Assembly (NCBI GenBank): GCA_030272585.1
Contig: BSYQ01000005.1
Location: forward strand, 496,001 to 560,000
Reading direction: 5' to 3'
Source: Bryopsis sp. KO-2023
Taxonomy: Eukaryota > Chlorophyta > Ulvophyceae > Bryopsidales > Bryopsidaceae
DNA length: 64,000 bases
Every line of letters starts with the position of its first letter. The stretch's first letter is position 1. A model generated the notes under the pieces. The model saw nothing but the letters and a program-made list of their open reading frames with translations. It did no database searches and was not told the DNA's origin. The position numbers and the translations under genes are program-made. This document shows, piece by piece, positions 3,921 through 64,000 of the stretch.

Positions 3921-3945
3921 GGCGGCACTGGGAATCGAACCCAGT
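3921..3945 (-). other. tRNA T-arm / box-B-like relic
   Basis: On the minus strand this reads as a perfect 5-bp T stem around TTCGATT (CTGGG-TTCGATT-CCCAG), followed by TGCCGCC, matching the pol III box B consensus GGTTCGANNCC. No matching acceptor 5' half, D arm or anticodon arm exists upstream, so it is not a tRNA gene. Copy B keeps it at about 46,641-46,665 with a stem-breaking change. It could be a tRNA-derived SINE or tRNA fragment. Confidence 0.45.
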
Positions 3946-4011
3946 ATTAACCACAACCTCAGACCGAAAAAAACAATAACAAAAATAACAAGATAAGATT
4001 TCAGTTACAAG

Positions 4012-25187: not shown

Positions 25188-27698
25188 TCAGACCAGCACT
25201 TCATCGCCAACCTGAAAATCCACTTTCCTTCGACGTTTGTTTGCTGAGGTGCACATGCGGTTCTGTGCCTCTGCGTATTTCGCCTTAGCGTTTCGCATTT
25301 GGTCGTCCATTCGACGTACCATCTCAGCCGCCATTTCCGATTCATCGCCCGTCCGAACTCCCTTCCTGGCAACAACTATCTGCCCCATGTTCTGGCCATA
25401 CAGAAGATGGGCTGGCGCGTAGCCTGTGGAGACATTCCGTGAATTATTTGCGGCAAATTCCGCGGTCGGCAAATAATCCACCCAACGGTCTGGATACCGT
25501 TCCACATACGGACGCAGGAAATCCTCCAGCACCCGGATGGTGACTTCCGACTGCCCATCCGTTTGAGGATGGTATGCAGTGCTCATCCGGAGCTGGGTAC
25601 CTAAAAGTTTGAAAAGGGAGGTCCAGAACAAACTTGTGAACCTTGGATCCCGATCCGAAACTATGATTTTAGGCAGCCCGTAGTGTTTGTATATGTTCTC
25701 CACGAACAGCTTTGCGTATTCTGGCGCCGTGATAGTTTTGTTACAGGGTACGAACCTCGCATACTTCGTCAATCGGTCTACAAAGACAGCGATTGCTGTG
25801 AAGCCATGGGAAGACGGTAGGTCGGTAACCAAGTCCGTCGTGATCTGTTCCCATTTCTGGTCTGGGATAGGCAACGGCTGCAAAAGACCTTTCTGTCTTT
25901 GCAAGTCCGATTTGTTTAGTTGACAAGTTGGGCACGTTTTCACGTATGCCTTTACGGCTAACCCAACGCCTTTCCACCAGTAACTGCGGGTAAGTACTTC
26001 GGTCATGCGGTCTGCTCCAACATGACCTGCACTGGGAACGTCGTGATGCTCTTCCAGAATCCGTTTCTGGAAAGAAGCAGGGACCACAAGCAAACTAGGA
26101 CCTGGGTCTGTCTTGGTATAATACAAGAACCCGTCGTCCAGCTTGTATTGCGGAGAAACCCCTCGTTCCATCCTTTCAAAGATAGGCTTGAGTTGTTCAT
26201 CACTTCTCAAAGCCTCTTTCCATGCCTCCTTCTCTGCCACTTCCCAAGTGGAGAGGTTATTGAGCTGGTCTGGCGGACCAGGAAGGCTCCGGGATAACGC
26301 ATCAGCCAAGACATTGGCTTTCCCCTGGATATAGACGATTTTTGGACCTATGGATTGGAAAAACCCTGAGTTTAACCACCGGGTTTGGGTCCGCGACAAC
26401 GTGCTCTGGTTCATGAAGTGGGTGATCGGTTTGTGGTCCGTCAACACCTTCACACCCCCATCGCATCCCTCAAGGTAGTGTCGCCACTGGGCTAAAGCAT
26501 ATGCTATTGCCCCCAGCTCCCGCTCATATGCGGAGTATCGCGTTTCAGCTGGTTTTAATCGTCTGGAAAGGTATGCAATTGGTTGCAAACCTTTCCCATG
26601 ATCCTGGGTAAGAACCGCTCCATATGCAGTTCCAGATGCATCCGTTATTACGGTGTACTCCTTAGCCGGATCAGGAAGGAGTAAGATCGGTGCGCGGCTA
26701 ATCCGATCCTTAAGTTCGTTGTAGGCATTGCGTTGGTTCAGCCCCCATTCCCAGACAGTATCCTTCTTGGTTAGATCTGTCAAGGGACTCGCAATCCTAG
26801 CGAACTCAGGAATGAACTTACGATAGTAAGATACCATTCCAAGGAAACTTCGCACATCAGTGACCGAAGTTAACTCCTTCCATTGTTGAATAGCCTTAAC
26901 CTTATCCTGCATCGGTTGAAGGCCTTTTTCCGACAAATGATACCCCAGGTAGTCCGTCTCTGCTACCCCGACTTCGCACTTACTGGCTTTTGCGTACAAC
27001 TTATGTTTCCGCAACCGTTCAAAGACCAGTTTTAGGTGCTCGACGTGCTCTTCCACCGAGTTGGAAAAGACCAGGATGTCGTCGATAAACACCACTACAA
27101 ATTCGTCAAGGAACTCCCCCAGCAAATCCTGAACCATGGTCTGGAACTGGGCTGGGCAGTTGGTCATTCCGAACGGACACACGAGAAATTCGAAATGTCC
27201 GTATCTCGTTCGGAATGCCGTCTTGGGAGTATCCTTGGGTCGAACGGGAAACTGCCAGTAGCCTGAGCGGAGGTCGATCTTCGTATAGATCTTCGCTCTG
27301 GCGAGACGGTCCATTAACTCCTCAGGAAGAGGGAGTGGATACCTATTCTTTACCGTGAATTTGTTTATCCAACGGTAGTCCACACACATTCTCAACCCTC
27401 CGTCTTTCTTGGGAACAAAGAGTATGGGTGCGCCCCAGGGACTCTCGGAGGGTCGGATCTTCCTTTGTTCGAGGAGGTAATCCACCTGCGTCCTAACTTC
27501 GTCCAGCTCGGCTGGAGAGAGTTTGTACAAGGGACGGTGGATTGGGGTCATTTGTTCGTCCTCCAGGTCCACCTTAAATTCGTGGCCTTTTCTGACTGGA
27601 GGAACGCCGGGTGGTAAGTCTTTCGGGAACACATCCTTGAAACTTGTGAGGACAGCCTTGATCCTTGGGTCGAGACCCGAATGCATTACCTTTTCCAC
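25188..27698 (-). CDS. pol: Pol: reverse transcriptase, RNase H, integrase (integrase C terminus missing)
   Basis: 836 residues. RT has PILFVPKKDGGLRMCVDYRW and the catalytic FIDD at 204-207 (usually YxDD). RNase H has TDASG at 352-356, ERELGAI near 392-398 and TDHKPI near 420-425. Integrase has the HHCC zinc motif (H552, H559, C589, C592) and the DDE triad D622, D682, E718 in HPQTDGQSEVT context. The frame runs off at GDEVLV exactly where the GPY/F module should follow; that module and the chromodomain are on the plus strand from about 30,930. It is in the protease frame, separated by one in-frame TAG at 27,705-27,707. All catalytic residues remain, so the inversion looks recent. Confidence 0.93.
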   Translation of the reverse strand: MEKVMHSGLDPRIKAVLTSFKDVFPKDLPPGVPPVRKGHEFKVDLEDEQMTPIHRPLYKLSPAELDEVRTQVDYLLEQRKIRPSESPWGAPILFVPKKDGGLRMCVDYRWINKFTVKNRYPLPLPEELMDRLARAKIYTKIDLRSGYWQFPVRPKDTPKTAFRTRYGHFEFLVCPFGMTNCPAQFQTMVQDLLGEFLDEFVVVFIDDILVFSNSVEEHVEHLKLVFERLRKHKLYAKASKCEVGVAETDYLGYHLSEKGLQPMQDKVKAIQQWKELTSVTDVRSFLGMVSYYRKFIPEFARIASPLTDLTKKDTVWEWGLNQRNAYNELKDRISRAPILLLPDPAKEYTVITDASGTAYGAVLTQDHGKGLQPIAYLSRRLKPAETRYSAYERELGAIAYALAQWRHYLEGCDGGVKVLTDHKPITHFMNQSTLSRTQTRWLNSGFFQSIGPKIVYIQGKANVLADALSRSLPGPPDQLNNLSTWEVAEKEAWKEALRSDEQLKPIFERMERGVSPQYKLDDGFLYYTKTDPGPSLLVVPASFQKRILEEHHDVPSAGHVGADRMTEVLTRSYWWKGVGLAVKAYVKTCPTCQLNKSDLQRQKGLLQPLPIPDQKWEQITTDLVTDLPSSHGFTAIAVFVDRLTKYARFVPCNKTITAPEYAKLFVENIYKHYGLPKIIVSDRDPRFTSLFWTSLFKLLGTQLRMSTAYHPQTDGQSEVTIRVLEDFLRPYVERYPDRWVDYLPTAEFAANNSRNVSTGYAPAHLLYGQNMGQIVVARKGVRTGDESEMAAEMVRRMDDQMRNAKAKYAEAQNRMCTSANKRRRKVDFQVGDEVLV

Positions 27699-27704
27699 AT
27701 CCGG

Positions 27705-27707
27705 CTA
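27705..27707 (-). other. Single in-frame TAG between protease and RT
   Basis: TAG followed by CCGGAT on the minus strand is the only stop separating the protease and RT-IN frames, which are otherwise the same frame. It is either a readthrough stop or a nonsense mutation in this copy. Confidence 0.6.
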
Positions 27708-28847
27708 GAGATAAGCTGGTGTGGTTCCAGTAGCGTTCAAACGCTCTTCTGGAATTCCCGGATATGGATACTGCATGAGATGTGCCATATCTTCCGGGGT
27801 GGTTGGTCGCACAACCACAAGGTATGCCTGATCAACTTCTGGACTGTTCTTCACGAGCGAGAATAACTTCTTCGCTGAGACTGTATCAATAGCCGGTGCT
27901 AGGTGCTGTAAGTAATCTGATGGTCGTTCCTTCATAGGAACAGTTGTCCATCCAGCACCCACTGGAACTTTGAGCGTGCCTGTTGCAAAGTCCAGTTTGG
28001 GATTGGTCTGCATCAACCAAGGAAGCCCTAGTATCATGTCATATGAAAGGTTTGGGAAGACGTCTGCGGAAAGGGTTGTGGTATAAGTACCCATCCTGAG
28101 CTGCAAGTCTTCGCATCGCCGATCAAGTGAACATAGGGTTCCGTCCGCCAAAGTGACTCCCTTTTTGCACTCGGTTGTTTCGAGTTTCAGTCTCGTGACT
28201 AGTTTCTTGGTAATGTAGTTCTCCGTTGCACCACAATCAACATAGGCGGAGATCGGTACTCCTCCTAATCTGGCTCGGATCTCATATCCCATAAATTTCA
28301 AATGGTTAGGACCTCCTAGTGGTAACATACGCTCAGAAGGTGAATACTGACCTTCATCCACTTTTTGTCCTCTACCTGTTCCCTGAACAGGGGCTGCTGA
28401 CTCGTCAGTTGGTGGTGAACGAGTGGCAGGCTTATTTGATTCCCTTGCGGGTTCCCTTCCTTCCGGACTTCGTTTCGTTCCTTGAGGCGGGAACGATACC
28501 GAATTCTCAGTTCCTTCAGGACTACCAAGGTCTCCATGAACAGAGTCGACAGGTTCCGAACTGGATTCTGAACTTGTCCTAGTAAGCGTGCTGCACTTAC
28601 TGGATCGAGTTTCCAACTTAGCACTCATAATCGATCCCTCTGCACCTTGGGTAGCATTCTTTTCTATTTCCCCTTGTGCTCTTTTATTCACTTCTGCATT
28701 TCGAGCTAACCTTTCTTTTCTAAGAAGTTTCTGGCGCTGCTTATATCTGTGACGGCGTGCCCTTCTGCGTTTCGCCGAACGAGTCTGGGCTCTGTTCATC
28801 CGGCTTTTTCGTTTAACCATTTCTTGAACTTTTCGCCCTCTGGACAC
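27705..28847 (-). CDS. Pol: retropepsin-like aspartic protease segment
   Basis: About 380 residues in the -1 frame relative to Gag. A very basic start (RRARRHRYKQRQKLLRKERL) and a Ser/Glu-rich linker precede the protease core AYVDCGATENYITKKL (DCGA where DSG/DTG is usual) and the second-half motif MILGLPWL. It overlaps gag by 52 nt with a slippery heptamer at 28,811-28,817. It ends at TAG (27,705-27,707) just before RT in the same frame. It processes the Gag-Pol polyprotein by family knowledge. Confidence 0.85.
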   Translation of the reverse strand: MSRGRKVQEMVKRKSRMNRAQTRSAKRRRARRHRYKQRQKLLRKERLARNAEVNKRAQGEIEKNATQGAEGSIMSAKLETRSSKCSTLTRTSSESSSEPVDSVHGDLGSPEGTENSVSFPPQGTKRSPEGREPARESNKPATRSPPTDESAAPVQGTGRGQKVDEGQYSPSERMLPLGGPNHLKFMGYEIRARLGGVPISAYVDCGATENYITKKLVTRLKLETTECKKGVTLADGTLCSLDRRCEDLQLRMGTYTTTLSADVFPNLSYDMILGLPWLMQTNPKLDFATGTLKVPVGAGWTTVPMKERPSDYLQHLAPAIDTVSAKKLFSLVKNSPEVDQAYLVVVRPTTPEDMAHLMQYPYPGIPEERLNATGTTPAYL

Positions 28848-30916
28848 TTACTTTGAATATGTCCAGTTTTTCCACACATATAGCATTTAGGATTTACGCC
28901 TCCACCTCCACGTCCTTGATTCCTGCCACCACCTCGTCCGCGACCTCGGCCACCACCCCTTCCCCGACCTCGACCTTGGCCAATGTTTTGTGCCTGGTCT
29001 GGTTGGGGTTGCTGTTGGCCACCCATCTGGTTTGCCTTATCAGTCTGGGGTTGGTTTTGCTTTTTATTTTGGCCTCGGCCTTTACCTCCGCGCCACCGTC
29101 CGCGGCCACGAAAGTTTCCTCCTCTGGATGAGGCAATAGCATCAAGACGAGCCGCCGTCTGGATCGCCAACTCAATGCCGTGCGGCACTTGAGCCACTGT
29201 TTGTTGTTTGATATGGAACTTTAATCCGTCCACGAAGAAGAAGTATTGTTCTTCATCTGTCATGTTAGGAATCCTCAGCACTTGTTCTCGGAAAGCAACA
29301 ATGTACTGGTGCACTGACCCAGTCTGTTTCAGGTTCCGTAAGGAGCGCCTGGCTACATCAGACATTCTGGTGGGTTCAAATGCTTGGACCAGTTCCTCAA
29401 CAAACTCAATCCAATTTGTGATTGGATGTCTTTTCCCTTCCCTTGTACGCAGATCCTGGACGTTTCGCCACTGAGCAGCAGCTCCGGTCAGGTTACTGCG
29501 GAAGAGCCTGAACCATACGCTCTCATCGATGTCCAAAGTCTGGCAATAGACCGTCATTTCTAGTTGCCAATCTCTGATCCATCGCTGACCATCACCTGAG
29601 AAGGCCTTTGGGAAAGGAATACGAACGGATGACGGAATCCGTCCGTGGCGATCTTGCGGAGCAGCAAAGCCTTGGTTAGGGTCTGGAGGACCCCCACCTC
29701 CACCTCCGCCACCTCCACCTCCACCTGGGTGGTACGGCCATCCACCACCCCCACCTCCACCTGGTCCGGAAAGGAAAGATCCCCCTCCACTTCCAGGTGG
29801 TCCTCCTCCGCCTCCGCCTCCACCCCCAGGTCCACCTCCGGGTCCCCCTCCACCACCACCAGATCGATTTCCACCCTGTGGCTGGCTTGATGGAGTTGAG
29901 GGATAAGAACCCCACCCGTAATACGGGTTACTCGCGGAAGGTGCTCCGTATTGGTTTACGGATTGTCCCAAACTTGGTTGGGTGCCTGGTTGGTTTCCTG
30001 GTTGCATACCAGGTTGGGTGTTAAGAGCCGGGATTGGATAGAAGACAGACAGCGGAACTGTCGTCAGTGGTTGTGTTAACATGGATGTCGTTGGTGGTAA
30101 CACACTCGTTACAGGGACACTAAGTATGGGTCTGGCTGTGCCAAGTTGACCCGCTTGGCCGAATGGTGCGCCCATTGCCATAGTTTGTGGCGGCGCAAGA
30201 CTCCATGCCGTCCGTGTTCTTGGGGATGTAAATAAACCCCAGGAAGATGGAGAACCTCCACCCACGGAGTCTGCGACAGTTGTCGATGGGCTGCGACCAC
30301 CCAATCCTCCTAACGTGGTTAGACCAGTAAAAGTACTCAGATCCGGAACAGGTGGTACCGGAAATGGGATACTGGTAAGAGGAGTGGATGACACAAAAGG
30401 AACGCTTGTGGCTGCAGCTTTCGTGGCCGGCAAAGTGACCGTGCCAGTTCCTGCTCCCATCATACCCACTACAACTGGGTCCTGAGCCGGGACTCGAACT
30501 TTCTCCCGTTTTTTCCACGCACTCAGTGTTTCTTTGAACTTCGAATCAACATACTTGGATAGGTTACTTTCCAAAGTCTGCTGTTTCTCTGTCGCGTCTG
30601 ATAGAAATTTCTCCATCAGTTGCATCGACCTGTGTCCTCCTGCAGTGTCATCAGAACTCACACTGCCTCGTTCCGCTCTTCTTTGTTTGCGTTGTTCTTC
30701 GGCTTGGTGTAAGTCCCGCAACACTTTTAGGCTCTGGCTTACCAAGCCTGAGAGTGTGTCTAGCTGGCCTTGGTGGTCGACTTGCTCGCACCGAGACTCA
30801 TCAGTAGTCCGAGCTAGGTTATCCAGCGTTGTCTGCTGTAGGCGCATACCTTCAGCAACTTTTGTCAGAGAGGCTTGCAGAGACAGAATTTGTTTCTCCC
30901 TGAGCGCATTGAGCAA
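28796..30916 (-). CDS. gag: Gag, main part: coiled coil, capsid, zinc knuckle (inverted block)
   Basis: 706 residues with no ATG at its 5' edge (the first codon is TTG at 30,914-30,916), consistent with being the 3' part of a longer Gag. It starts with coiled coil, then Thr/Pro/Ser-rich sequence, long Gly/Pro runs (about residues 350-425), a capsid-like retrotransposon Gag domain (FPKAFSGDGQRWIRDWQLEM to about HGIELAIQTAARL), RGR/GRG basic repeats and one CCHC knuckle C678-C681-H686-C691. It ends at TGA 28,796. A slippery site precedes the stop. It forms the virus-like particle and binds RNA by family knowledge. Confidence 0.9.
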   Translation of the reverse strand: MLNALREKQILSLQASLTKVAEGMRLQQTTLDNLARTTDESRCEQVDHQGQLDTLSGLVSQSLKVLRDLHQAEEQRKQRRAERGSVSSDDTAGGHRSMQLMEKFLSDATEKQQTLESNLSKYVDSKFKETLSAWKKREKVRVPAQDPVVVGMMGAGTGTVTLPATKAAATSVPFVSSTPLTSIPFPVPPVPDLSTFTGLTTLGGLGGRSPSTTVADSVGGGSPSSWGLFTSPRTRTAWSLAPPQTMAMGAPFGQAGQLGTARPILSVPVTSVLPPTTSMLTQPLTTVPLSVFYPIPALNTQPGMQPGNQPGTQPSLGQSVNQYGAPSASNPYYGWGSYPSTPSSQPQGGNRSGGGGGGPGGGPGGGGGGGGGPPGSGGGSFLSGPGGGGGGGWPYHPGGGGGGGGGGGGPPDPNQGFAAPQDRHGRIPSSVRIPFPKAFSGDGQRWIRDWQLEMTVYCQTLDIDESVWFRLFRSNLTGAAAQWRNVQDLRTREGKRHPITNWIEFVEELVQAFEPTRMSDVARRSLRNLKQTGSVHQYIVAFREQVLRIPNMTDEEQYFFFVDGLKFHIKQQTVAQVPHGIELAIQTAARLDAIASSRGGNFRGRGRWRGGKGRGQNKKQNQPQTDKANQMGGQQQPQPDQAQNIGQGRGRGRGGGRGRGRGGGRNQGRGGGGVNPKCYMCGKTGHIQSKCPEGEKFKKWLNEKAG
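28811..28817 (-). promoter_or_regulatory. -1 ribosomal frameshift heptamer G_UUA_AAC
   Basis: On the minus strand G TTA AAC lies in Gag zero frame (codons TTA, AAC), 12 nt before the gag TGA and within the gag/protease overlap. Protease is in the -1 frame, the direction this heptamer drives. GUUAAAC is a known functional slippery sequence in some nidoviruses. A 3' stimulatory structure was not folded. Confidence 0.65.
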
Positions 30917-30924
30917 GTATATTC

Positions 30925-31370
30925 CCCTTGCTTCACTTCAGAAAATCCCACCGAAAATCCGCCGGCGATTTGTTGGACCTTTCCGGGTGGCTAGCCGAAT
31001 TGGGGCTGTCGCCTACCGTCTTGACCTTCCCGACCACTGGAAAATCCACCCAACTTTCCATGTGTCGAAACTGAAGGCTTACTCTCGGCTTGATGACGAT
31101 CAGCGAGAGATAGACGCTCCAGAGGAGGAGCTAGTGGATGGAACCATCGAATTCGAGGTCGAGCGCATCCTCAGAGATCGGGGCACTACTCGCAAGGAGT
31201 ACCTGATCCTTTGGAAGGGCTACGATTTGATGGAATCCACCTGGGAGCCAGAAAGCCACCTGGCCAATGCCCAGGACTTGCTTAAGGAGTACTTAGCCAA
31301 CAAACCGGAGGATAAACAAGTGACCCAGTCTACGAAAAAGACTAGGGCCCAACGCAGAACTCGAACCTAA
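30925..31370 (+). CDS. pol: Integrase C-terminal GPY/F module and chromodomain
   Basis: A plus-strand segment follows from LASLQKIPPKI: RRRFVGPFRVASRIGAVAYR (GPY/F-type), then HPTFHVSKLKAY, then a chromodomain (IEFEVERILRDRG, YLILWKGYDLMESTWEPES). It ends at TAA 31,368-31,370. The frame is open upstream to 30,534 only through the antisense of Gag. It directs integration by chromatin binding in chromoviruses. It is the missing end of the minus-strand integrase, so it marks the right inversion breakpoint at about 30,912-30,930. Confidence 0.9.
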
Positions 31371-43469: not shown

Positions 43470-45215
43470 ATGAAATCATTGTTATTGTTATTGTTGAGAA
43501 AAGCCTCTATCGTTGGACAATATCCCCAGCGAAAAGTATTGGCAAATGTGGATGGATTCCATTTGAGGTAATTCATATATGTCCATGGAACCCCCTCTTT
43601 CACAGCAATGCAAAAACTCAAAGGGCGGAAACAAGGCACCAGGGGGCCCCCTGTTCAGTCAAAGTGAAAGTCAAACATCCAAGTAGATTTTGGCCAGCGA
43701 ACTTTCCCTGGGCAATTGCATCAGAGCAAATGTGGCGTTTGCATAGGGTGGAGCATTCCGTCTTCACCAGTGTCTTGTGGACAGTGGAATGACATTCATG
43801 CCGAGCTGCGTAAAATTTGATATCAAACGGAGCTTGAGGAAAGTTGATTGGATTCGCATGGACTGTGCATTGTCAGCCCTCACAGGAGCAGTGGGATAAT
43901 TTTGTTCAATTGTTCTTCTTCAGCAGCAGAATGTGGGGCAAGTAGTCACAGTGGGAATGAGTCCACAGACTGGTGGTTTAAAGGGGAAGCTTTGCTGAAA
44001 TCCTCAACCAGCCGTGTGGAGTTAAATTGCAGAACTTCAAGCTGAAGGTGGATGAGAAATGGCTGGTCAGGATCCCCAGCCAGAAACTCTGAAAATAATG
44101 CAGAGGAGCATTGACTTTTTTGGAGGCCTTAAACCCACTCCCAGAGCATGATCTCCACTCCGATGCTCAAAAAGATCAAATAGATGATATACTCCTTGGA
44201 ATAAAGACAGCTCTTTCTGAAAGGCCGCAAACCAGAATACCCCCATTCTTCACTGTTCAAAAAAATCCATGTAACCAGAAAAAGCGGGGAAAGTTAGTTG
44301 AAGCTGGTTTCTGATTGTTCACCCAATTTAATTCCCCCAGCTGATTGGTTGCTGATCAATCAAGAGAGGAATGATGAGATGCACATCTGGCTATGAGTAT
44401 TGCTTCGGCTGAGGGAGATTTTCATGGGGTATGTCCCATTTGGGTATTTCCTCATCCACTCTTCACTAGCTAGTGCTATAGCACTGCACAAACAATTGAC
44501 CACCCTAAAGAGTTTTTAGCTTCTCTGTGTGTATTGTTTGTTTGATTGTTTGTTTGTTTGTTTGTTGTTTTTGGAACTTGTGATGTACGATGTTGATGGT
44601 GGCCTCTTAGTCCCAGTACGATGTGCTGTGAAATGGACAGGGAGCGGCGGTGCTGCAAACCCCTCAAAATCCTATCCCACCCCCATTCCACAACAGAACG
44701 ACAAGAAACCCTCGCAGGCGCTGCTGGCTTGTGGGAATCCTTGTTTTTTGCGTACAGAAACACTTGAGGCTTAGGCCATCCCTATTTGGCTTCATGGCAG
44801 AATTGTCTTTGAAAGAGTGGGTTGGACGCCTGTCTAGTTTCGATTGACACGGCGGGGTCTGTCCGATCGCTGGCGGCCTGGATCGCGGGCTAAGGAACAT
44901 GGAAGAGAGCAAGAAAGTGCGCTGTCGAACAATGCCGCCGTGATCCAGCTTGTAGCGCGTGGGTTTCCCTCCGCTGTAGCCGCATCTCGAAATTCCTGAC
45001 TTTTGAGGATCGGAAACGAGCGGAAAACGACGAGGTAGGCAGGTAATTTCTTTTTTCTGCGTGGCTGCCACTCTGCATAATTCTCGGGTTGGGGCAGAAA
45101 TGTTTGGGGATTTCGCACCGGTATCGTTCTTTCTTGTCCTGAGTTTCTCGCTGATGGGAGTATGTTCGGAAGCAACACTGGGGTTTTCTTCGGTCATTGG
45201 GACGAGAACGATCAT
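43470..45215 (+). repeat. Near-identical inner palindrome arm, left
   Basis: 1,746 bp matching the reverse complement of 51,505-53,250 with no indel: paired coordinates sum to 96,720 throughout (for example 44,476 with 52,244 and 43,639 with 53,081). I saw no mismatch in the stretches compared. It also resembles, more distantly, the tail of copy A (about 8,400-9,800). Confidence 0.88.
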
Positions 45216-46729
45216 TTGTTTAAGAATAAGAAAGAATAACGGGAAAAGAAACAAGAAAAACGAAGGGCTTCTTCCGTGCTCAATATATTGGTTCCCGCAG
45301 TCTAGAAAAAAATTGGAAAAGTGGTCGATTAGCCAGGTGTGGCTACAACATGGGGCTCTCATCAGAAATGCAATCTCCCCCTACTCTCTCTCTCTCTGGA
45401 GCCAAGCCGACGAGGACTAGACGAATGATAAACGCTCACTTTGTTGTTAATAGGTAAGGCCGCCATGGGAAGCACTTGCGCCGCCAGCGCCGCCAGGGAC
45501 ACCACCCCCAGCAACACACCCGCGACGTACGCACTGACCTGAACAACCAACACCTGGAAAAACATCCCTCATTCAGAACTCCACATGTGCGTATCGAGTT
45601 AGTAGATCTCTGTTCGGACACCCACCGCCTTCAGCCTCACAAGGCTGGAGATGTGCGATGTTGATGGCGGGCTCTTCCAAAAAAAATCCCAATACGATGT
45701 GTTGTGAAGTCGACAGGGAGCGACGGTGCTGCAAACCCCTTAAAGCCATCCCACACCAGATCTACGTCAACAAACAATTGCTGGAGCCCGGACTTGATTT
45801 ATTCACCCAGGTTGGAAAAACGAAAACAGCATCCCAAGAAGTGTTTAATGTCTTCGGGGAATCCAGTTTTTGGTGGTGTGAGTCTACGTGCGGTGGAATG
45901 GTATGGACCGTGCCTAGGGTAAAAGAGTTCTCTTGACGTCGAAAGTATGGGATGGGGGCAATCTAAAAGGCCCTGAGCTGGGCCCCGATCGCCAATACAC
46001 AGCGGTGAGTGTTCTGAACCACGTTTGCGTGGATCGAGGGGTGTTTCTCACTTCGTGTTCAAACTGTTTCGGTTTAAGGGGCGATTGTCACTGTGCCAAC
46101 AAAAATGTACTCATGGCAGTTCATCCAGTAGGACTTTAGCGCTGCAGGTGGAAAAAAATTGGGCCAAAAGGCGCTGCTTTTTTTAAATCTTTCGGCTTGA
46201 AGCTAAGAACCGCAAATTTTCAATCACATGTTGTTTCTGACGGAGTTTTTCCTTTTTTTCTCACGCAAAGGTTTCCCACAAGCGATCCGATCGTGTGCGT
46301 CTGTGGAGGCAGCCAACATGGAAAGCCCCTTCCATGAAACACATGGCGACTTGCTCAGCAGTTTCTGGACAGAATTGGGCAGCAAAAGTTGGCCTGCACT
46401 GCGGAAAGATCAAGACAACAGACAGACAGTAGAAGATCTGCAAAGGGATATTGCTGGAAACTTTTTTTAAAGGCTCACTGGTCGTCATTAGTTAACAAAT
46501 TTGGTTGGAAGGAGGAGTTCCAGCTTTTGTTGAAAAAGGATTGAAAGCCTTTTGAAATTGATCGACATTTTTGGTAGATTATTGTAAAAAAGTTTGAACC
46601 TTGGTACCATTCAGAAAGAATGGTAATAATCGCAGTTCAGAGAAGGCGGCACTGGAAATCGAACCCAGTAATAACCACAACCGCCGGGACGAAAATAACA
46701 ATAACGAAAATAACAAGATAAGCTTTCAG

Positions 46730-50261: not shown

Positions 50262-51504
50262 CTGTGGGAAAACTCCTACTGTGCGATGTCCATGAAATAT
50301 TCATCCCAGAGCGACGCTGAACGTCACCGACGATAGATCCCCCAAAAAACGCGCAGCGTGGTCCAAAAGATTCCACATTGTGTCCGCAGCAACGCATAGC
50401 CAAACATCGCACAACGGATGCTGATCATGACCCAACGATAGATCCCAAAGACATCGCGCCAGGTGGTCCAAAACATTGCACACCGAAGGAATTACTTGGT
50501 ACGCGATGTGCATTCTGTGCAATGATCCAGCTCTTTTTGCGAATCTTTCGAATATATTACACACTACCGGTTTTCGCATAGTTAACGTTCACAATCTCGG
50601 GGTAGCACATCCCAAATGGGATGCGTGTACAACAAGCGGGACCGGCAGAACAATAGACCGGTAGATCGGGACCGGCTCAAAACAATACACGTACATGGTC
50701 ATCTTCTTGGTCGGGCTAACCGTCGTAGCATCGTCGTCCATATTGCGTTGTTGCATTGATCGATTTCCAGTAGTATCCGATTGATTTTTTTTGCAGTATC
50801 CTAAGTTCAAAAGAAACCTCGGACACAAGTCTTCGTCACTTTAACCTAACGTACAATTCTTAGGCGACCCAGAGACGTTGAGTGAAGAAGAAATAGACCT
50901 TTTATACTTGCAATATGGAAGGAAATTTCTGTCATAAATCACGTGACTTCGATAAAAATACAGAACGGAGGTGTGGAGATAAAGTTAAGAGAATATGAAG
51001 ATATAGTTCTAGGAATCTTATGAGAATGTGAAGATACAGTGGAGAGAATGTGGAGACACAGTTGGACTCCCAACTTGGGAGAGAAACACAAAAAAAACAC
51101 GAAGTAAAATTACAAAGCACAAGATTACATATCTTGACCGATCACACAAAGCTCGAGTTCACCCCAACAACCAAAAATTTAAAATTTCCTCAAAAGTCCT
51201 TTGAATATTTTGAAGGTCAGAGTCGCCCAGTGACGGAAAACTATATCTGGAAGCCCAAGTTGAAATCGAATGTTTATCGCTGTTGGACGCGCATGCTTGA
51301 GGTCGCCAGCATGAGCGATTGAATCGAATAGCGGACACTTCAGCCACCGCCGCTCCACCTCGCCACACACTCTTGATTTCTGCACAGCAAATGACAATAA
51401 GCAATTTTTCTGAAAAAAAAAGCCCTCCCCTCCCGACCCACACACGCCAAATAAGAGCAGCCCTGTCGAAACGAAAACGACGGGCGAAACCTTTAAAAAC
51501 AAAT
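50262..51504. other. Upstream spacer of dynein-like copy B
   Basis: Shared with copy A with indels. It contains an internal repeat (CGACGATAGATCCC / AACGATAGATCCCAAAG near 50,330 and 50,435) and GAGAATGTGGAGA units near 50,980-51,060. No gene or core promoter recognised. Confidence 0.35.
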
Positions 51505-53250
51505 ATGATCGTTCTCGTCCCAATGACCGAAGAAAACCCCAGTGTTGCTTCCGAACATACTCCCATCAGCGAGAAACTCAGGACAAGAAAGAACGATACC
51601 GGTGCGAAATCCCCAAACATTTCTGCCCCAACCCGAGAATTATGCAGAGTGGCAGCCACGCAGAAAAAAGAAATTACCTGCCTACCTCGTCGTTTTCCGC
51701 TCGTTTCCGATCCTCAAAAGTCAGGAATTTCGAGATGCGGCTACAGCGGAGGGAAACCCACGCGCTACAAGCTGGATCACGGCGGCATTGTTCGACAGCG
51801 CACTTTCTTGCTCTCTTCCATGTTCCTTAGCCCGCGATCCAGGCCGCCAGCGATCGGACAGACCCCGCCGTGTCAATCGAAACTAGACAGGCGTCCAACC
51901 CACTCTTTCAAAGACAATTCTGCCATGAAGCCAAATAGGGATGGCCTAAGCCTCAAGTGTTTCTGTACGCAAAAAACAAGGATTCCCACAAGCCAGCAGC
52001 GCCTGCGAGGGTTTCTTGTCGTTCTGTTGTGGAATGGGGGTGGGATAGGATTTTGAGGGGTTTGCAGCACCGCCGCTCCCTGTCCATTTCACAGCACATC
52101 GTACTGGGACTAAGAGGCCACCATCAACATCGTACATCACAAGTTCCAAAAACAACAAACAAACAAACAAACAATCAAACAAACAATACACACAGAGAAG
52201 CTAAAAACTCTTTAGGGTGGTCAATTGTTTGTGCAGTGCTATAGCACTAGCTAGTGAAGAGTGGATGAGGAAATACCCAAATGGGACATACCCCATGAAA
52301 ATCTCCCTCAGCCGAAGCAATACTCATAGCCAGATGTGCATCTCATCATTCCTCTCTTGATTGATCAGCAACCAATCAGCTGGGGGAATTAAATTGGGTG
52401 AACAATCAGAAACCAGCTTCAACTAACTTTCCCCGCTTTTTCTGGTTACATGGATTTTTTTGAACAGTGAAGAATGGGGGTATTCTGGTTTGCGGCCTTT
52501 CAGAAAGAGCTGTCTTTATTCCAAGGAGTATATCATCTATTTGATCTTTTTGAGCATCGGAGTGGAGATCATGCTCTGGGAGTGGGTTTAAGGCCTCCAA
52601 AAAAGTCAATGCTCCTCTGCATTATTTTCAGAGTTTCTGGCTGGGGATCCTGACCAGCCATTTCTCATCCACCTTCAGCTTGAAGTTCTGCAATTTAACT
52701 CCACACGGCTGGTTGAGGATTTCAGCAAAGCTTCCCCTTTAAACCACCAGTCTGTGGACTCATTCCCACTGTGACTACTTGCCCCACATTCTGCTGCTGA
52801 AGAAGAACAATTGAACAAAATTATCCCACTGCTCCTGTGAGGGCTGACAATGCACAGTCCATGCGAATCCAATCAACTTTCCTCAAGCTCCGTTTGATAT
52901 CAAATTTTACGCAGCTCGGCATGAATGTCATTCCACTGTCCACAAGACACTGGTGAAGACGGAATGCTCCACCCTATGCAAACGCCACATTTGCTCTGAT
53001 GCAATTGCCCAGGGAAAGTTCGCTGGCCAAAATCTACTTGGATGTTTGACTTTCACTTTGACTGAACAGGGGGCCCCCTGGTGCCTTGTTTCCGCCCTTT
53101 GAGTTTTTGCATTGCTGTGAAAGAGGGGGTTCCATGGACATATATGAATTACCTCAAATGGAATCCATCCACATTTGCCAATACTTTTCGCTGGGGATAT
53201 TGTCCAACGATAGAGGCTTTTCTCAACAATAACAATAACAATGATTTCAT
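51505..53250 (-). repeat. Near-identical inner palindrome arm, right
   Basis: Mirror of 43,470-45,215 (coordinate sum 96,720). Contains open frames on both strands that are exact mirror copies of those in the left arm. No recognised gene. The arm ends near CTCAACAATAACAATAACAA. Confidence 0.88.
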
Positions 53251-55175: not shown

Positions 55176-58065
55176 CGTCGCAAAAATGTACTCGGTATTA
55201 TTCTGGGTCGAGAATAATACCGGTGCTACGGTATTATAATACCGTGGGTGTTACAGGGTATTAATAGGTATTAAAATTGTACTCGGTATTATTATGGGAC
55301 GAGAATAATACCAGTGCTACGGTATTATAATACCGTGGGTGTTACAGGGTATTAATAGGTATTAACAATAACATCATCTTAATACCGCGAGCTGGGGTGA
55401 GAATGACGTCTCGTCGCGACAACGCCTTCACTGAAATTGTCAAGTTTTTTTTTTGGTGCTGTCCCAACGTCGCCGCCGTCCTCACGTCGTACTCAATGCG
55501 GAATGGAAATCGTCCAGTTCGATTCTGGAGCCGCATCTGGGAAAAAAACTTCAGCACCAGCATTGCGCCTGAAGTGTGCCGAGAAGCGGTCGATTCCTTG
55601 TCGGGCGAGGTTGTCGCTTTTTTTCGCCTCGTTTCAGAGTTTCGAGGCGTTTGGGAGGACCGGCGCGACCTTTTTTTTCCATCGTTGGCAAAAGTGTGCT
55701 GATTAGCGACGGAGAATGATGGCAGCACCGCTGGCAGGCGCGGTGGACCAGGCGCGAAAGAGCGCGCGTTGGTATTGTGGCATCAGCATTCTTTTGCTCT
55801 TTGGGCTGTACTTCCCATATAATTTTCTGCATATCCTGTATTTTTTGTTTTGTTGCTTCATTTTCAGCAGGAGGCTTCTAAGGATTTTACAATGGTGGAA
55901 GATAGGCTGAAGCAACACTCTGCCCAGACCAAAAATTTGAACTGAGCTGGGGTAGCCTGATTGTGGTGGTGGAAATCAGAACAGTTTCTTTTGTACAGAT
56001 AGCAATTGTTGATTTGCAATTTTTTTTGCAAGGTTCAGTTTTGGGAGGTCTTTCTTGTTATTTATTCCTCCCTTCCACGTGTTTGTACATGAAATTAGCT
56101 CAAACTGTGTCTGCTGTGCTAGGGAAATAATATGGATTTGTCGATGGAAAATGAAAGTTATTTTGCTGAGAAGTAGGTACCCGGTTCTGTCATCCACCAG
56201 TCAACAGACAAGGAGTGTTTTTAGTGGGAAAAGCCGTTGCACAAAGGGAGTCAATATTTTAGTTTGAAAAAGTTCTGTTGAAACTTTGAGAAATGGAATG
56301 ATAGATTGATTCATGGTTTCGCAGGGGTGGCGTTGGGATGAACCCGCGAGGATAGGATAGGTGCGTTTCAACGTGGTGGGTGGAACAACGTTGGCTTCGA
56401 GAGGGTTTTTTGTTTAATATAATTACTTTCACTTAGTTTTGTTTTTATGTTTTTGTTTCCGGTTTGCTTTCAGTTTGAAGAAGTTTCGGAAACCCTGGAT
56501 CCTGCAGTTGGAAGGGGCACTGCAAGCCAACCCAAGACCCCATGAATGATGGGGTGCTGGAGATGTGCATGGCAGAAAGCCAATTGGACCTATGGTTGAA
56601 AGCATGCAACAGCCTTTCTTAGGTTTCCAGAATGGCCTCCTTGAACACTTTTGGTATCTATTTCTAGAACGACTGTCCCCCCCAGTAGTGCCCAAAATTA
56701 TCAAGTTCTGATTCATTTACTGAGATGTTTACTTGTTTTTCTGGGCAGGATCTGAGTGAATGGGAGGAGGAAGAGCAGAAGGGAGCAAAAAAAAAGGAAA
56801 ACAAAGCAAAGAAGGAGGTCAGTTTCTTTCTTTCGAATTCCACACGCTTGGAACACCAGCTATGCGAGGGGAAAAAAGACGACTACTGTACGATTCTGCA
56901 TGTCTAAGGCAAGCTGGACAAGTGTTTTATCAAAAACGATAGCTCATGAACGACACGTCTTCCCCAATTCTTCTCCGCGAAGATTTATAAATTCATAGAT
57001 AAGATATATAGGTAGATAACATATATAGATTTTACTGCATTTATCATGGACATCTCGCTGTGTGCATGTTTGATCGAAACTTTTAGGTTTGCACATGAAA
57101 GGTGCACCTGATGACAAGAGATCAAACCTGGAACTTGGGCTCTTTCACACAACTGCTTTGATCTTTTTTGTTCTGTCGAGTCTATGATGTGGGGTTTTCC
57201 CGTAGGCCAGCTACTGTACCTCTATAACTTATTTCTTGTTGTAAGACTCTGGTTCTCTCAGGAGCATGGCGGCAGCCTCCCTGTTGAGAGGATCTGTTGG
57301 ATTTGGGTACAGCAGCAACTGGGGAAGGAAAACTTCAAAAACAATCCTTTCACCTGGGAAAGGCTTCTGTTGATGTACGATCGCTGGAGGAAATTGCACA
57401 ACTGCGACCCACTCTTGTAGAGTGCAAGGCTGAGGCCAGGAAAGATTGCCATTCCGATCGCTCATTTATGTGTGGGGAATTTGAGGACAGAGAACCTGGG
57501 GGGGGTGAATTGCTGAACGATTGTGAGTTCGGATTATGGTGATGGACAAGAGCTCTTCTCAGCTTTTGATTAGATTGTGGTGGGAGAAAAGGTCTGTCCT
57601 GAAAGAGCAGGATGGTCGATGCCAGTTCGATTCTGGGCCTGTCAATGCAATTTGGGAAATGTAATGAAGCAATTGTATTTTTTTAATTTTGACATTACGT
57701 CTGTGCATTCTGATATTACGAACACCCAATGATATCGATTAATATTATTGCATTTCATCATCGGTGGTATTACTCGGTGTTAATAACACCGTAAGCACGG
57801 TGTTATCAGACCGTGGTATTACTCGATGTTAGACGGTATTAACAATACCACTAATACCCAGTCTCCCGCCTGAGTTTCAAAGACGTCAACCCAGGTATTA
57901 CCGGTGTTATTAACACCGGTTAATACCGATGGCATTTAATATCGCGTGCAAGGTGTTATTAATACAAGGTGTTAAGTTGGGAGACTAGACATTAACGTGT
58001 ATTAATAATACCGCGGTGTTACAGGGTATTAACGCAGTCTTAATACCGAGTACATTTTTGCGACG
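55176..58065. mobile_element. TIR element with GGTATTA subterminal arrays
   Basis: 2,890 bp with 25-bp perfect terminal inverted repeats starting CGTCGCAAAAATG (55,176-55,200 and 58,041-58,065), flanked by TG on both sides. The paralogous locus near 59,795 runs straight across (GCCATGCCACTGGGCGG), showing an empty site. Subterminal arrays of TATTA/TAATACC fill 55,190-55,370 and 57,690-58,050, including two direct units of about 97 bp at the left. No transposase seen. Interior exon-like pieces (for example 55,870-55,940, 56,470-56,545, 56,750-56,818) suggest captured gene sequence. Confidence 0.75.
55870..57420 (+). pseudogene. Possible captured exons inside TIR element
   Basis: Short plus-strand blocks preceded by T-rich AG acceptors: QEASKDFTMVEDRLKQHSAQ after TTTTCAG (55,868), FEEVSETLDPAVGRGT after TTTCAG (about 56,474), DLSEWEEEEQKGAKKKENKA after GGCAG (56,750) and ending GGAG|GTCAG. 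They do not chain into one frame, and stops intervene. Family unknown. Confidence 0.35.
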
Positions 58066-59696: not shown

Positions 59697-59846
59697 GGTC
59701 CGGGTGAGAGGCGCGCTGGGCTCGAGTGCGCATTAAATGGACGTTCTTTGAAGTACTCCAGTCACATAGAACCTGGATCTCCAACGAACGCCATGCCACT
59801 GGGCGGACCATTTATCACAAGCATCTTCAAGCCTTTTCTGATATAG

Positions 59847-61616
59847 GAAGCAGTTCCATTTTCCTGGTTATTAGGTGAACTTGTTCCAGTCTATAAAGGC
59901 AAAGGTAGTCGCCTTGATCCCTCCAGTTTTAGGCCGTTGACTATTAGTCCTCATATATACAAGCTTTTTGCTTATGTACTTTTGAATCGTGTCCAAGATC
60001 CCTTTTCTACGATTAGACATGTTTGTCAAGGGGGTTTTGGTAAATTTTGCTTACCGGAATTTTTTGTCTTCTCGGTTTGGGCTCTTATTTTTCTGTCAAA
60101 AAAATCTAAGAAGGGGTTAATTTTAATCTTCTTAGATTTATTAAAAGCCTTTGATCGAGTTTCTCATCCCCATCTCTTTTTTGAGTTAGCAAGGACTGGG
60201 GTGCCAGACAAGATTTTGAAGGTTTTGGCTTTTATTTATGCGAATGCTATATCTCGAGTTCGATGTACTTCTGGTGTTTCGAATAATTTTATTCAAGGTA
60301 GAGGGGTACGTCAGGGTTGTCCTCTTAGTCCGGAATTATATAAGGCTTATCATGATAATTTGATTCGTGCTATTGAACATTCTGGGATTAGACCTATTTC
60401 TTTTGATAATGTATGTATTCCGGCGTTAGCGTTTGCTGATGATACTATGATTCCGATTCAGTATACGGAAGATTTGAATTGTCTTAATGACGCTTTAGCG
60501 GGTTGTTCTGCTAGTTGGGGGATTGCTGAGAACGTTTCGAAAAGGGGTGTGGTGGTGATTAACTTTCCTAATGTTCATGGAGTACAGATTGGTGATTCTT
60601 TTATAACGGCTACTAAAACTTTTCGCTATTTAGGGGTTTTTTTTGGTACTGGGTCAAACATTTTCTTACCGCACTTTCAACATATTGGTCGTAAAATGTC
60701 TTCTTCTCTTGGATTGCTTTATAGTCATTTGTCGAAACATAAAATTGAAGATCCTCGGGTTAAATATAATTTGTTTAAACAATTCGTTTTTGGTTCAATA
60801 AATTTTGGGAGTGCTATTTGGTATTTGTTTTTGACTAAAGGACAGAGGGATTCGCTTGAGCGGTCTCATTTGGCTTTTTTACGGTTTTGTTTAAATTTGC
60901 CTCGGCGTGCTCCCACGGAGGTGTTATATGCGGATATGGGGACTTACCCTTTAGAGTTTTTTTTTAGGCGTCTAATTTTTAGATTCTGGAATAAACTTTT
61001 TTCTCTTCCTGAGGAACATCCATCTAAGGCTATTTTTAATAGTCTTTTGGATGAACATAGGTGTGGTTCGTCTTGGGTGGTCAGGGTTGAGTCTTTGGTG
61101 AAAGAGCACTTAATTTCTTTTTCTGGAAAGAGCATTATTGATATTAGGCTGTGGTCTTCTAATTTTAAGAATCATTTTTCGAGGTTGACTTTTTCGTCGG
61201 AGAAGTCCCATGTTCGATATTTTTTTAGTCAAATCAAACGGAATATTCGATTCTTGGATTGCCTTTCTGTCCTTTCGACAAGTTCTCTGCGAAAAATTTA
61301 TTGTGCCTTTCGGGCGGGGGTTCATGGTCTTCAGGTAGATTCGGGTCGGTTACAACATCCTCTTGTGGTGCGGGAATTACGATTCTGCAGGGTATGTGGT
61401 TTTGGGGTAGTGGAGGATGAGTTCCATTTTCTTTATGTGTGTCCGGCATATAATTTTTTGCGTATTCGCTGGTCAGAGTTTTTCCGTTGTCGCAATCTTT
61501 TCTTTCTCTTCAATAGGGTTGATCAGATTAAGGTTGCACGTATGTTGAAGGATTTTTTCCTCTTACGGAGGGCTGTCTTGTGTATTCGGGAGAACAATGC
61601 TGCGGGTTCTTCTTAA
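59847..61616 (+). CDS. LINE reverse transcriptase (5' truncated)
   Basis: About 589 residues, open from the truncation point (first in-frame ATG at 59,937). RT motifs in order: ELVPVYKGKGSRLDPSSFRP, LDLLKAFDRVSHP (catalytic Asp), RGVRQGCPLSPELY, PALAFADDTMI (FADD catalytic pair) and FRYLGVFFG. The C-terminal part has a CX2CX9HX4C cluster (CRVCGFGVVEDEFHFLYVC) like zf-RVT. No stop or frameshift. It makes cDNA from the element's RNA at nicked target DNA. The stop TAA (61,614-61,616) lies inside the start of the dUTPase ORF. Confidence 0.92.
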   Translation, partial: EAVPFSWLLGELVPVYKGKGSRLDPSSFRPLTISPHIYKLFAYVLLNRVQDPFSTIRHVCQGGFGKFCLPEFFVFSVWALIFLSKKSKKGLILIFLDLLKAFDRVSHPHLFFELARTGVPDKILKVLAFIYANAISRVRCTSGVSNNFIQGRGVRQGCPLSPELYKAYHDNLIRAIEHSGIRPISFDNVCIPALAFADDTMIPIQYTEDLNCLNDALAGCSASWGIAENVSKRGVVVINFPNVHGVQIGDSFITATKTFRYLGVFFGTGSNIFLPHFQHIGRKMSSSLGLLYSHLSKHKIEDPRVKYNLFKQFVFGSINFGSAIWYLFLTKGQRDSLERSHLAFLRFCLNLPRRAPTEVLYADMGTYPLEFFFRRLIFRFWNKLFSLPEEHPSKAIFNSLLDEHRCGSSWVVRVESLVKEHLISFSGKSIIDIRLWSSNFKNHFSRLTFSSEKSHVRYFFSQIKRNIRFLDCLSVLSTSSLRKIYCAFRAGVHGLQVDSGRLQHPLVVRELRFCRVCGFGVVEDEFHFLYVCPAYNFLRIRWSEFFRCRNLFFLFNRVDQIKVARMLKDFFLLRRAVLCIRENNAAGSS

Positions 61617-62016
61617 ACATGATGCTGCTCGAGTTCCGACTCGGGCTTCCTTGGGTTCGGCGGGCTATGACCTTTACTCGCCCCAGGATTATGTTATTCC
61701 AGCTTGGAATAACGGTCTGGTTGATATGGGTGTGGCGGTTGAAATCCCTCAAGGTTATTATGGTCGGTTGGAAATTCGTTCGGGTCTCTGTGCCAGGTTC
61801 AAGTTATTTCTGGGTGCTGGGGTTATTGACAGTGACTATAGGGGTTCTTTGATTGCGGTTCTTTTTAACTTCTCCTCTGAAGATTTTTACATTAAAGCGG
61901 GTGATAGGGTGGTTCAATTACTTTTGGAAAAAATTGTTACTCCTCAAGTAATTATTGCAGTTTCTTTGTCCCTTACGGATCGTGGTTTGGGTAGTTTTGG
62001 GTCTACCGGCAGTTAG
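61597..62016 (+). CDS. dUTPase encoded by the LINE
   Basis: 139 residues with all five motifs of trimeric dUTPases: motif 1 AGYDLYS (22-28), motif 2 GRLEIRSGL (56-64), motif 3 GAGVIDSDYRG (73-83, Asp and Tyr of the active site), motif 4 AGDRVVQLLLEKI (101-113) and motif 5 RGLGSFGSTG (129-138). It would hydrolyse dUTP to dUMP and pyrophosphate, keeping uracil out of cDNA. The ATG lies 20 nt before the end of the RT frame, an arrangement suited to stop-reinitiation; an RT-dUTPase frameshift fusion is an alternative. Length fits a complete monomer. No intron, and the same T-rich composition as RT, so it belongs to the element and not to a neighbouring host gene. Confidence 0.92.
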   Translation: MLRVLLKHDAARVPTRASLGSAGYDLYSPQDYVIPAWNNGLVDMGVAVEIPQGYYGRLEIRSGLCARFKLFLGAGVIDSDYRGSLIAVLFNFSSEDFYIKAGDRVVQLLLEKIVTPQVIIAVSLSLTDRGLGSFGSTGS

Positions 62017-62154
62017 TGCCTGATGCTCTGTGTTTTTTGTTTTTTTTGTTTTTGTTTGTTTTTTGGTTCCAAACATTCGTCTGTTCACATTGGTGTACAT
62101 TTTTCCGCAATAGAAGCTGGGTGGCTTCTTCGCGTGTAATTATGTTATGTTATG
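62017..62154 (+). other. LINE 3' UTR and (TTATG)n tail
   Basis: Short T/G-rich 3' UTR ending TTATGTTATGTTATG, a microsatellite tail instead of poly(A), directly joined to the TSD. Confidence 0.8.
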
Positions 62155-62165
62155 TTTTCTGATAT

Positions 62166-63384: not shown

Positions 63385-64000
63385 ATGGGGAACGACGACG
63401 TCCTGGAGGACAGCGCGGAGGAGCGATTGCAAAAGGCAGCGGTCGCGAGGATTTTTCGTGTGGCCAGGGAGAAAAGAACGAAGAGTTTTTTCTTCTCGAA
63501 CGACGACCTTTTGGAGCTTTTGGCGCTGGCCGAGAAGTTTTTAGGGGTTCAACCACACCCAAGGAAGTTTTTCGAATCGATCGATTCGTTGGTATTCGCT
63601 TCAAATCTGGAAGTGGCTGCGATAAATTCCGAGGAGACAGAAACGGTATTGTACTCATATCTTTGTGTGTTTTCCGTGAAATTTCATTTTTAAAAAAGCA
63701 CCGATAATCAGGATTGCTCGTGCAAGCAGCACCACAGGCACATACAGGGGTACTTTTTCACTGAAGTTGAATCGTGTGCTGGTCAGGCTCCGTTTGGCGA
63801 GTTTTGCGGCAATGTGGAGAATTGGCTGGGAGCTGTGAAAAAGCTCATGCTTGATAGTGTCAGACATCAGATGGATGAGTCCGTTGAAGCGGGCACCACT
63901 GATGTGATGGGCTTGACGGACACAGGCGACCTTTCTTGGCAGGACCGCGAAACAGTGATTACGGAGTTCGAATGGGGTTCCCAGCTGTGGCACGACGAAA
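63385..64000 (+). CDS. Dynein heavy-chain-like gene, inverted copy, 5' part (runs off window)
   Basis: Exon 1 63,385-63,645 (87 codons, identical length to 16,004-16,264) with SFFFSNDDLLELLALAEKF; donor GTATTG; exon 2 from 63,748 (CATACAG|GGG) to beyond the edge, with CGNVENWLGAVKKLM and SWQDRETVITEF. A few substitutions separate it from the left copy (for example MGNDDV versus MGNDDF), none creating a stop here. Linker-type dynein sequence; what follows is outside the window. Confidence 0.65.

Follow-up and report, generated by a model that had tools for sequence, protein, structure and literature searches.

A selected dUTPase as the third open reading frame of APE-type LINEs in the green alga Bryopsis sp. 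KO-2023, with probable UAG readthrough between ORF1 and ORF2

dUTPases hydrolyse dUTP and keep uracil out of DNA. What is such an enzyme doing in a long interspersed nuclear element (LINE)? The question is raised by a stretch of 64,000 nucleotides from Bryopsis sp. KO-2023 (contig BSYQ01000005.1, positions 496,001 to 560,000; hereafter the window), near the end of which a LINE copy contains an intact open reading frame (ORF) for a dUTPase. Our best overall explanation, which we regard as probable, is that the element is a LINE with an apurinic/apyrimidinic endonuclease (APE-type), that its third ORF (ORF3) is a selected dUTPase lowering dUTP during the synthesis of complementary DNA (cDNA), and that its ORF2 is translated by readthrough of a UAG stop codon. 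The copy belongs to a LINE family that we call A, and its parts in the window are as follows.

59834..59844, no strand: 5' target-site duplication (TSD), TTTTCTGATAT, 11 bp
59845..62156, + strand: LINE copy of family A, truncated at its 5' end; it covers positions 3052-5363 of an element of about 5371 nt and is 99.9% identical to copy L023
59847..61616, + strand: ORF2 fragment with reverse transcriptase (RT; RVT_1, E 4.5e-20) and, by reading, a C-terminal CCHC-like motif; TAA at 61614-61616
61597..61616, + strand: 20 nt common to the last part of ORF2 and the first part of ORF3, in differing frames, by sequence reading
61597..62016, + strand: ORF3, the dUTPase, 139 aa, ATG to TAG, PF00692
62017..62156, + strand: 3' untranslated region (UTR) with a terminal short (TTATG)n-type tail, by sequence reading and copy comparison
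62113..62128, + strand: 3'-terminal hairpin GAAGC-TGGGTG-GCTTC, complementary to the sequence just after the ORF1 UAG in full-length copies
62155..62165, no strand: 3' TSD, TTTTCTGATAT, its initial two T perhaps derived from the tail

A sequence-only reading of the window had described a LINE copy between 11-bp TSDs, with an RT frame followed, after a 20-nt overlap, by a dUTPase frame. The repeat is indeed found on both flanks and the coordinates of the two frames agree (59847-61616 and 61597-62016). The copy with its RT and dUTPase is real; it is, however, 5'-truncated and so not a full element. Because it begins at element position 3052, it lacks ORF1 and the endonuclease domain, both of which are present in the full-length copies L021 and L023. 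The only private change of its dUTPase is D122V, absent from the 28 other copies compared.

The identity of ORF3 rests on several lines of evidence. Its 139 codons hold no internal stop; the PF00692 dUTPase profile matches residues 11-138 of 139 at E 1.1e-31, and yeast dUTPase matches at E 5.1e-37. An AlphaFold model, a predicted monomer, has a mean predicted local distance difference test score (pLDDT) of 94.9 and adopts the fold of trimeric dUTPases; in structure comparison the Naegleria, human, and yeast enzymes (first rows) show 46-47% identity and template-modelling (TM) scores of 0.88-0.94. Across 36 aligned sequences A22, G23, D25, R61, S62, G75, V76, D78, D80, Q107, and G135 are invariant, and Y81, R129, and F134 are among the residues that are almost so; ORF3 has the residues of all five classical dUTPase motifs, D78 being the catalytic Asp. 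The earlier claim of a complete, uninterrupted dUTPase with five motifs is borne out by the profile match, the motif residues, and the model confidence, and by motifs and predicted fold ORF3 is confirmed as a trimeric dUTPase (PF00692). Its best database dUTPase matches reach 47-50% identity, in a word-based search that distant relatives may escape.

Is the enzyme a regular part of the element? We searched the host genome (91.1 Mb in 28 contigs), for which all counts are lower bounds. It holds 81 dUTPase matches, 55 of them in family A (identity at least 87%). Complete, stop-free family-A dUTPases number 42, and most of the remaining rows lack the N-terminal part of the protein, as expected from 5' truncation. 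When the best 42 of 490 candidates from a search with family-A ORF2 were scored, a procedure by which further LINE families may be missed, the dUTPase abutted ORF2 at the same junction in all 24 matches that reach the ORF2 end, on many contigs. Five copies have a complete stop-free ORF2 of 1098 aa, and every one has the dUTPase. ORF3, the dUTPase, is a constant component of family A.

Three further families also carry it. The full-length copy of family B, L033, has open frames of 387, 1085, and 140 aa, with 51% identity to family A in ORF2 and 55% in the dUTPase. Family C (L031, and a shorter piece, L039) and the decayed family D (L038) likewise have a dUTPase, which lies 3' of the ORF2 end in L031 and L038; in A, B, and C it sits between ORF2 and the 3' UTR. 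That four LINE families carry the enzyme goes beyond the sequence-only reading, which had expected other members of one family to share it. A dUTPase inserted separately, with boundaries of its own, was not seen: its flanks in A, B, and C are ORF2 and the 3' UTR. The idea that a later insertion or an assembly artefact joined dUTPase and RT is refuted by the identical junction in the 24 scored copies on many contigs and by the same gene order in several families; nothing speaks in its favour, and we give it practically no credence.

The class of the element is best seen in the full-length family-A copies, L021 and L023. From 5' to 3', family A consists of a 5' region that contains tandem repeats of 47 bp, an ORF1 of about 337 aa with a weak coiled-coil match, a UAG, the 1098-aa open frame of ORF2 (endonuclease, RT, and CCHC-like C-terminus), ORF3, and a 3' UTR of roughly 150 nt that ends in the hairpin and a short tail. 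In L023 an endonuclease domain (PF03372, E 1.6e-8) of APE type lies N-terminal to the RT; self-BLAST of this copy returned only the 47-bp tandem repeats and no long terminal repeats (LTRs), and its domain scan contained no integrase. The points of 5' truncation vary among 20 fetched family-A copies, and in part of these further TSDs were recognized by eye: GTTCGTCTCGAA (L019), GTTCGAGTCTTT (L023), and ATTGACTTTC (L026). Among PDB sequences the nearest RT is that of human L1 ORF2p (9e-20). The four best large-database proteins for ORF2 show 22-25% identity, again in a word-based search that may pass over distant relatives, and one scan of viral contigs with the RT fragment as query returned no relative. 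The TSDs, the 5' truncation, and the RT type argue that the element is an APE-type LINE with ordinary target-primed behaviour. It shares with L1 and other APE-type LINEs an ORF2 with endonuclease and RT, TSDs, 5' truncation, and a coiled-coil-like ORF1 (by the weak match). It differs from them in its third ORF, in the UAG that separates ORF1 from ORF2 within one frame, and in ending with a hairpin and a short repeat tail in place of poly(A).

Other LINE families of the same genome do without the enzyme. Among 150 ORF2 rows, after exclusion of A, B, E, and short rows, 42 were assigned to family F on the basis of their identity and range, one copy of it being read, and 17 were C-like. In family E, whose ORF2 is 33% identical, the 3 kb around each of nine places are free of dUTPase matches, as are two copies that were read. 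Family F, with 32% identity to A over the full ORF2, likewise has no match within 2 kb at any of its 42 assigned places, and among the 17 C-like rows a dUTPase lies within 2 kb only in C itself. The 3' ends of four C relatives (L061-L064) were read; in each, the ORF2 stop is so close to the 3' hairpin that a dUTPase would not fit between them. The view that a dUTPase is no standard part of a LINE holds within this one genome.

Has selection kept the enzyme, or has it merely been carried along? Pairwise codon models, applied within families since dS is saturated between them, gave ratios of nonsynonymous to synonymous rates (omega, or dN/dS) of 0.12 for L033/L034 (dS 0.39, 2dlnL 35.8), 0.157 for L033/L035 (2dlnL 25.9), and 0.152 for L034/L035 (2dlnL 32.3) in family B, and of 0.155 for L023/L040 (2dlnL 18.9) in family A. 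A value of 1 is rejected in all four comparisons, the three B values reusing the same three copies. A dN/dS near 1, raised at the outset as a possibility, was not found: at 0.12-0.16 between subfamilies, these ratios argue that the LINE dUTPase is under purifying selection. A tally of mutations in family A, taken over 29 of its 42 complete copies, for which neutrality predicts about 2.7 nonsynonymous changes for each synonymous one, agrees in its common differences (4 synonymous versus 1 nonsynonymous). Some copies carry damaging changes: the dUTPase of L040 shows R61H and is altered at G83, and in L049 the start codon is gone.

Three observations weigh against a selected enzyme. Private mutations in family A, with the old copy L040 excluded, are near neutral (13 nonsynonymous to 2 synonymous). 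Families E and F and the C relatives multiply without a dUTPase, so the enzyme is not needed for LINE movement in this genome. The host, moreover, has a dUTPase gene of its own (L050). The private mutations and the success of the sister families would suit a passenger, meaning a gene of the host or of a virus that was transduced a single time to the 3' end of a LINE and has no function there; so would the position of the dUTPase, since transductions occur at the 3' end. Near-neutral private mutations are, however, expected if single copies are dead on arrival; taken with the common differences, they make the moving lineages look purified while single copies drift. A passenger would also have to have stayed intact in both A and B despite their 51% ORF2 identity, in two further families, and in 42 stop-free copies, and the dN/dS between subfamilies largely refutes it. 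We consider it very improbable.

The dUTPase phylogeny bears on where the enzyme came from. The LINE dUTPases form one clade with support of 99/93 in a 69-row tree with 59 database homologues, and of 91/92 in a 21-row tree; the host dUTPase, whose gene is split as if by introns, and two Gypsy dUTPases fall outside it. The split gene, like the element content of the genome, is in keeping with a eukaryotic host. In the ORF2 tree A and B group at 100/100. These are the RT and dUTPase trees that the sequence-only reading had called for, and on them the LINE dUTPases have one origin. Two caveats apply: the bootstrap of the 69-row tree had not settled, and the dUTPase trees weakly pair A with C, unlike the ORF2 tree. 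A grouping of A and B is not rejected for the dUTPase (p-AU, the approximately unbiased test, 0.096); one capture with later losses and exchange of the module between LINEs both fit. The host dUTPase and the Gypsy elements were considered as donors and set aside, because the LINE dUTPases form their own clade, though the deeper branches are not resolved.

Two LTR elements of this genome, L029 (contig C8) and L030 (contig C6), have a dUTPase with good motifs inside their gag-pol frames; two further Gypsy-like dUTPase copies, L032 (contig C2) and L051, look degenerate. The Gypsy label was given by reading, and these four are the Gypsy-like rows that were read. Because LTR elements here carry dUTPases as well, retroelements in this genome probably acquired the enzyme more than once. 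Divergent dUTPase-like frames also occur at L053 (35%) and L052 (33%), on contig C12.

How does this arrangement compare with known systems? Retroelements with their own dUTPase include beta-retroviruses, non-primate lentiviruses, and LTR elements of fungi, rotifers, and planarians (PMC2427051, PMC5408684, PMC2864245, PMC6431247), the enzyme being described as rare in retrotransposons (PMC5408684). In the LTR elements described there it lies within pol, often between protease and RT (PMC5408684, PMC2864245, PMC6431247), whereas in the Bryopsis LINE it has an ORF of its own, downstream of ORF2. This LINE has neither LTRs nor a dUTPase within a gag-pol frame, unlike L029 and L030, and in the tree its dUTPase does not stand as sister to the two included from Gypsy elements of this genome. 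The esterase in ORF1 of CR1, L2, and RTEX elements is likewise an accessory enzyme captured by LINEs (PMC5408684); here the enzyme is another one, and it is placed 3' of the RT. In the parts of the open literature accessible to us we found no description of a dUTPase in a LINE; Repbase lay outside this search, so that novelty is provisional.

What would the enzyme do for the element? We propose that ORF3 hydrolyses dUTP and so would lower the ratio of dUTP to dTTP where target-primed reverse transcription occurs; the cDNA would then gain fewer uracils, and fewer repair nicks would break it. That selection has kept the dUTPase intact suggests that uracil in new DNA hinders these LINEs. In non-primate lentiviruses the dUTPase is needed in non-dividing cells (PMC2427051). 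The enzyme might instead have been selected mainly for something other than uracil exclusion, as a partner in the ribonucleoprotein or in signalling, or as a supplier of dUMP for dTTP; non-catalytic roles have been discussed for the dUTPase of HERV-K (PMC4531489). This seems to us improbable, because the sequences of A, B, and C retain, by eye, the catalytic residues of all five motifs (with V in place of A22 in C), and because dUTPases in LTR elements of the same genome fit a common uracil problem. If uracil exclusion is indeed the function, uracil in cDNA would limit LINEs as it does some retroviruses, and this element would have responded by capturing an enzyme. With dUTPases in its LTR elements too, this genome is suited to studying the influence of dUTP pools and uracil repair on retroelements, and its families with and without the enzyme offer a built-in comparison.

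The proposed mechanism further requires that ORF3 be translated, which we suppose occurs at a low level after termination on ORF2. ORF3 is in a frame different from that of ORF2, and its start precedes the ORF2 end by 20 nt in A and follows it by 26 nt in B and by 47 nt in C; this geometry fits reinitiation, as the first reading had suggested, and is not proof of it. Alternatively, ORF3 could have a separate mRNA, made by splicing or by an internal start. In four B copies a T-rich tract that ends in TAG and resembles a 3' splice site stands before the ORF3 ATG, and reinitiation after a rare 1,100-codon ORF would yield little ORF3 protein; A and C, on the other hand, show no such tract by eye, and we think a separate mRNA unlikely, yet worth keeping in mind.

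The translation of ORF2 poses a question of its own. In A, B, E, and F the frame of ORF1 continues into ORF2, interrupted by one UAG with a G after it (in F, where the copy read is cut 5' within ORF1, the frame is shown by the ORF1 end alone). ORF2 has no AUG ahead of the endonuclease motif (WNLQ, WNLR, or WNCR), and UAG is a genuine stop here, as it terminates the family-A dUTPase and the ORF2 of E. The contexts of the UAG-G are UAGGGGUUA (A), UAGGAUUGC (B), UAGGGGUGC (E), and UAGGAUUCA (F); the loci concerned are L023, L033, L058, and L059-L060.

In one copy per family we scanned the 3'-terminal 80 nt for pairing with 45-nt windows along the element. In A, B, and F (1734, 1657, and 1633 windows), the top partners of the 3' end overlap the UAG or begin just after its first base; in F the runner-up region is close (-37.4 versus -41.1). 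None of 500 dinucleotide-shuffled tails did as well in any of the three. The pairing is specific to each family: with its own partner each of A, B, and F scores between -33.0 and -42.7 kcal/mol and E scores -25.0, while combinations between families give -14.0 to -24.6. The exact antisense match in A is 14 nt, a length equalled in 1 of 200 shuffled UTRs; in F the pairing is 14 nt with one G-U; and in B a longer gapped version is what stands out. With the pairings of A and B aligned by hand over 11 base pairs, three pairs showed double compensatory changes and none was broken. Not everything agrees with a general role for the pairing: in E the UAG is in frame and unpaired, the stop window ranking 616 of 1690 and the tail being matched by 119 of 500 shuffles, and the exact antisense match in B (11 nt) is unremarkable, 17 of 200 shuffles being as long or longer. 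For family C, the sequence expected behind the ORF1 stop from the 3' loop is CACTCT; no C-family junction was present among the matches listed from two pattern searches, one with 35 places, or in the candidate L067.

From the shared frame, the UAG-G context, and the covarying pairing we infer readthrough of the ORF1 stop into ORF2, a process that pairing between the post-stop sequence and the 3'-terminal hairpin would aid in A, B, and F; the likely function of this pairing is to tie readthrough to an intact 3' end. Tombusviruses and murine leukaemia virus (MLV) read through a UAG-G in the same kind of context, that of Moloney MLV being UAGGGGUGU, and tombusviruses likewise pair a post-stop site with the distant 3' end, across about 3.5 kb (PMC3234231). 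Here, by contrast, the arrangement would be in a LINE, with 11-14 nt pairing to a 3'-terminal hairpin, and is known from sequence alone. In LINEs, too, the second ORF can be translated unusually: SART1 and L1 use reinitiation for ORF2, in SART1 by an overlapping stop and restart (PMC5972666), whereas here the frame is the same and no AUG precedes the endonuclease motif. A LINE whose stop codon pairs with its 3' end was not found in the accessible parts of the open literature, PMC5009743, PMC4559204, and PMC2861651 included. The covarying link is a possible control of LINE translation, without counterpart in the literature searched, that short reporters could test.

It is tempting to go one step further, and here we are tentative, putting the case at somewhat below even. 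Such a LINE would resemble a small RNA virus, with its own dUTPase against uracil in the cDNA and its RT made by pairing-dependent UAG readthrough, so that only RNA with an intact 3' end would make RT, which would amount to a full-length check linked to cis preference.

The 3'-terminal hairpin is also a site of insertion. A second RT-bearing element, represented by L055:576-2885 (- strand; 769-aa RT frame, RVT_1 1.2e-12), lies in reverse orientation within the hairpin of the dUTPase LINEs and their relatives, with AGAAGCT-type duplications, and occupies it in 8 of the 20 fetched family-A copies; the hairpin of the window copy is free of it. It is also found at L056 and at the 3' ends of L010-L012, L014-L016, L018, L024, L034, L061, and L063, the pieces in L024, L034, and L063 being by reading a diverged subtype. 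The 3' extension of some family-A copies is this insertion and not, as considered, a part of the LINE. Its C-terminus presumably resembles an R2-type restriction-like endonuclease, and it seems to be a LINE that targets other LINEs.

The family-F copy examined stands just downstream of a coding stretch, L065:287-784, which we assume to be MutS-like, so that this copy is perhaps in or beside a mismatch-repair gene. Elsewhere in the window lies a further retroelement.

25188-31370, - strand: LTR element, with RT, RNase H, and integrase at 25188-27704

A frame at 30486-31370 (+ strand) is, on our assumption, chromodomain-like. By reading, the window also has two near-identical inverted coding pairs, 14999-15955 (- strand) with about 63700-64000 (+ strand), and 44664-45380 (- strand) with 51301-52056 (+ strand). 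Finally, GGTGTTATTAACACC-like repeats, inverted and direct, are clustered at 57764-58057.

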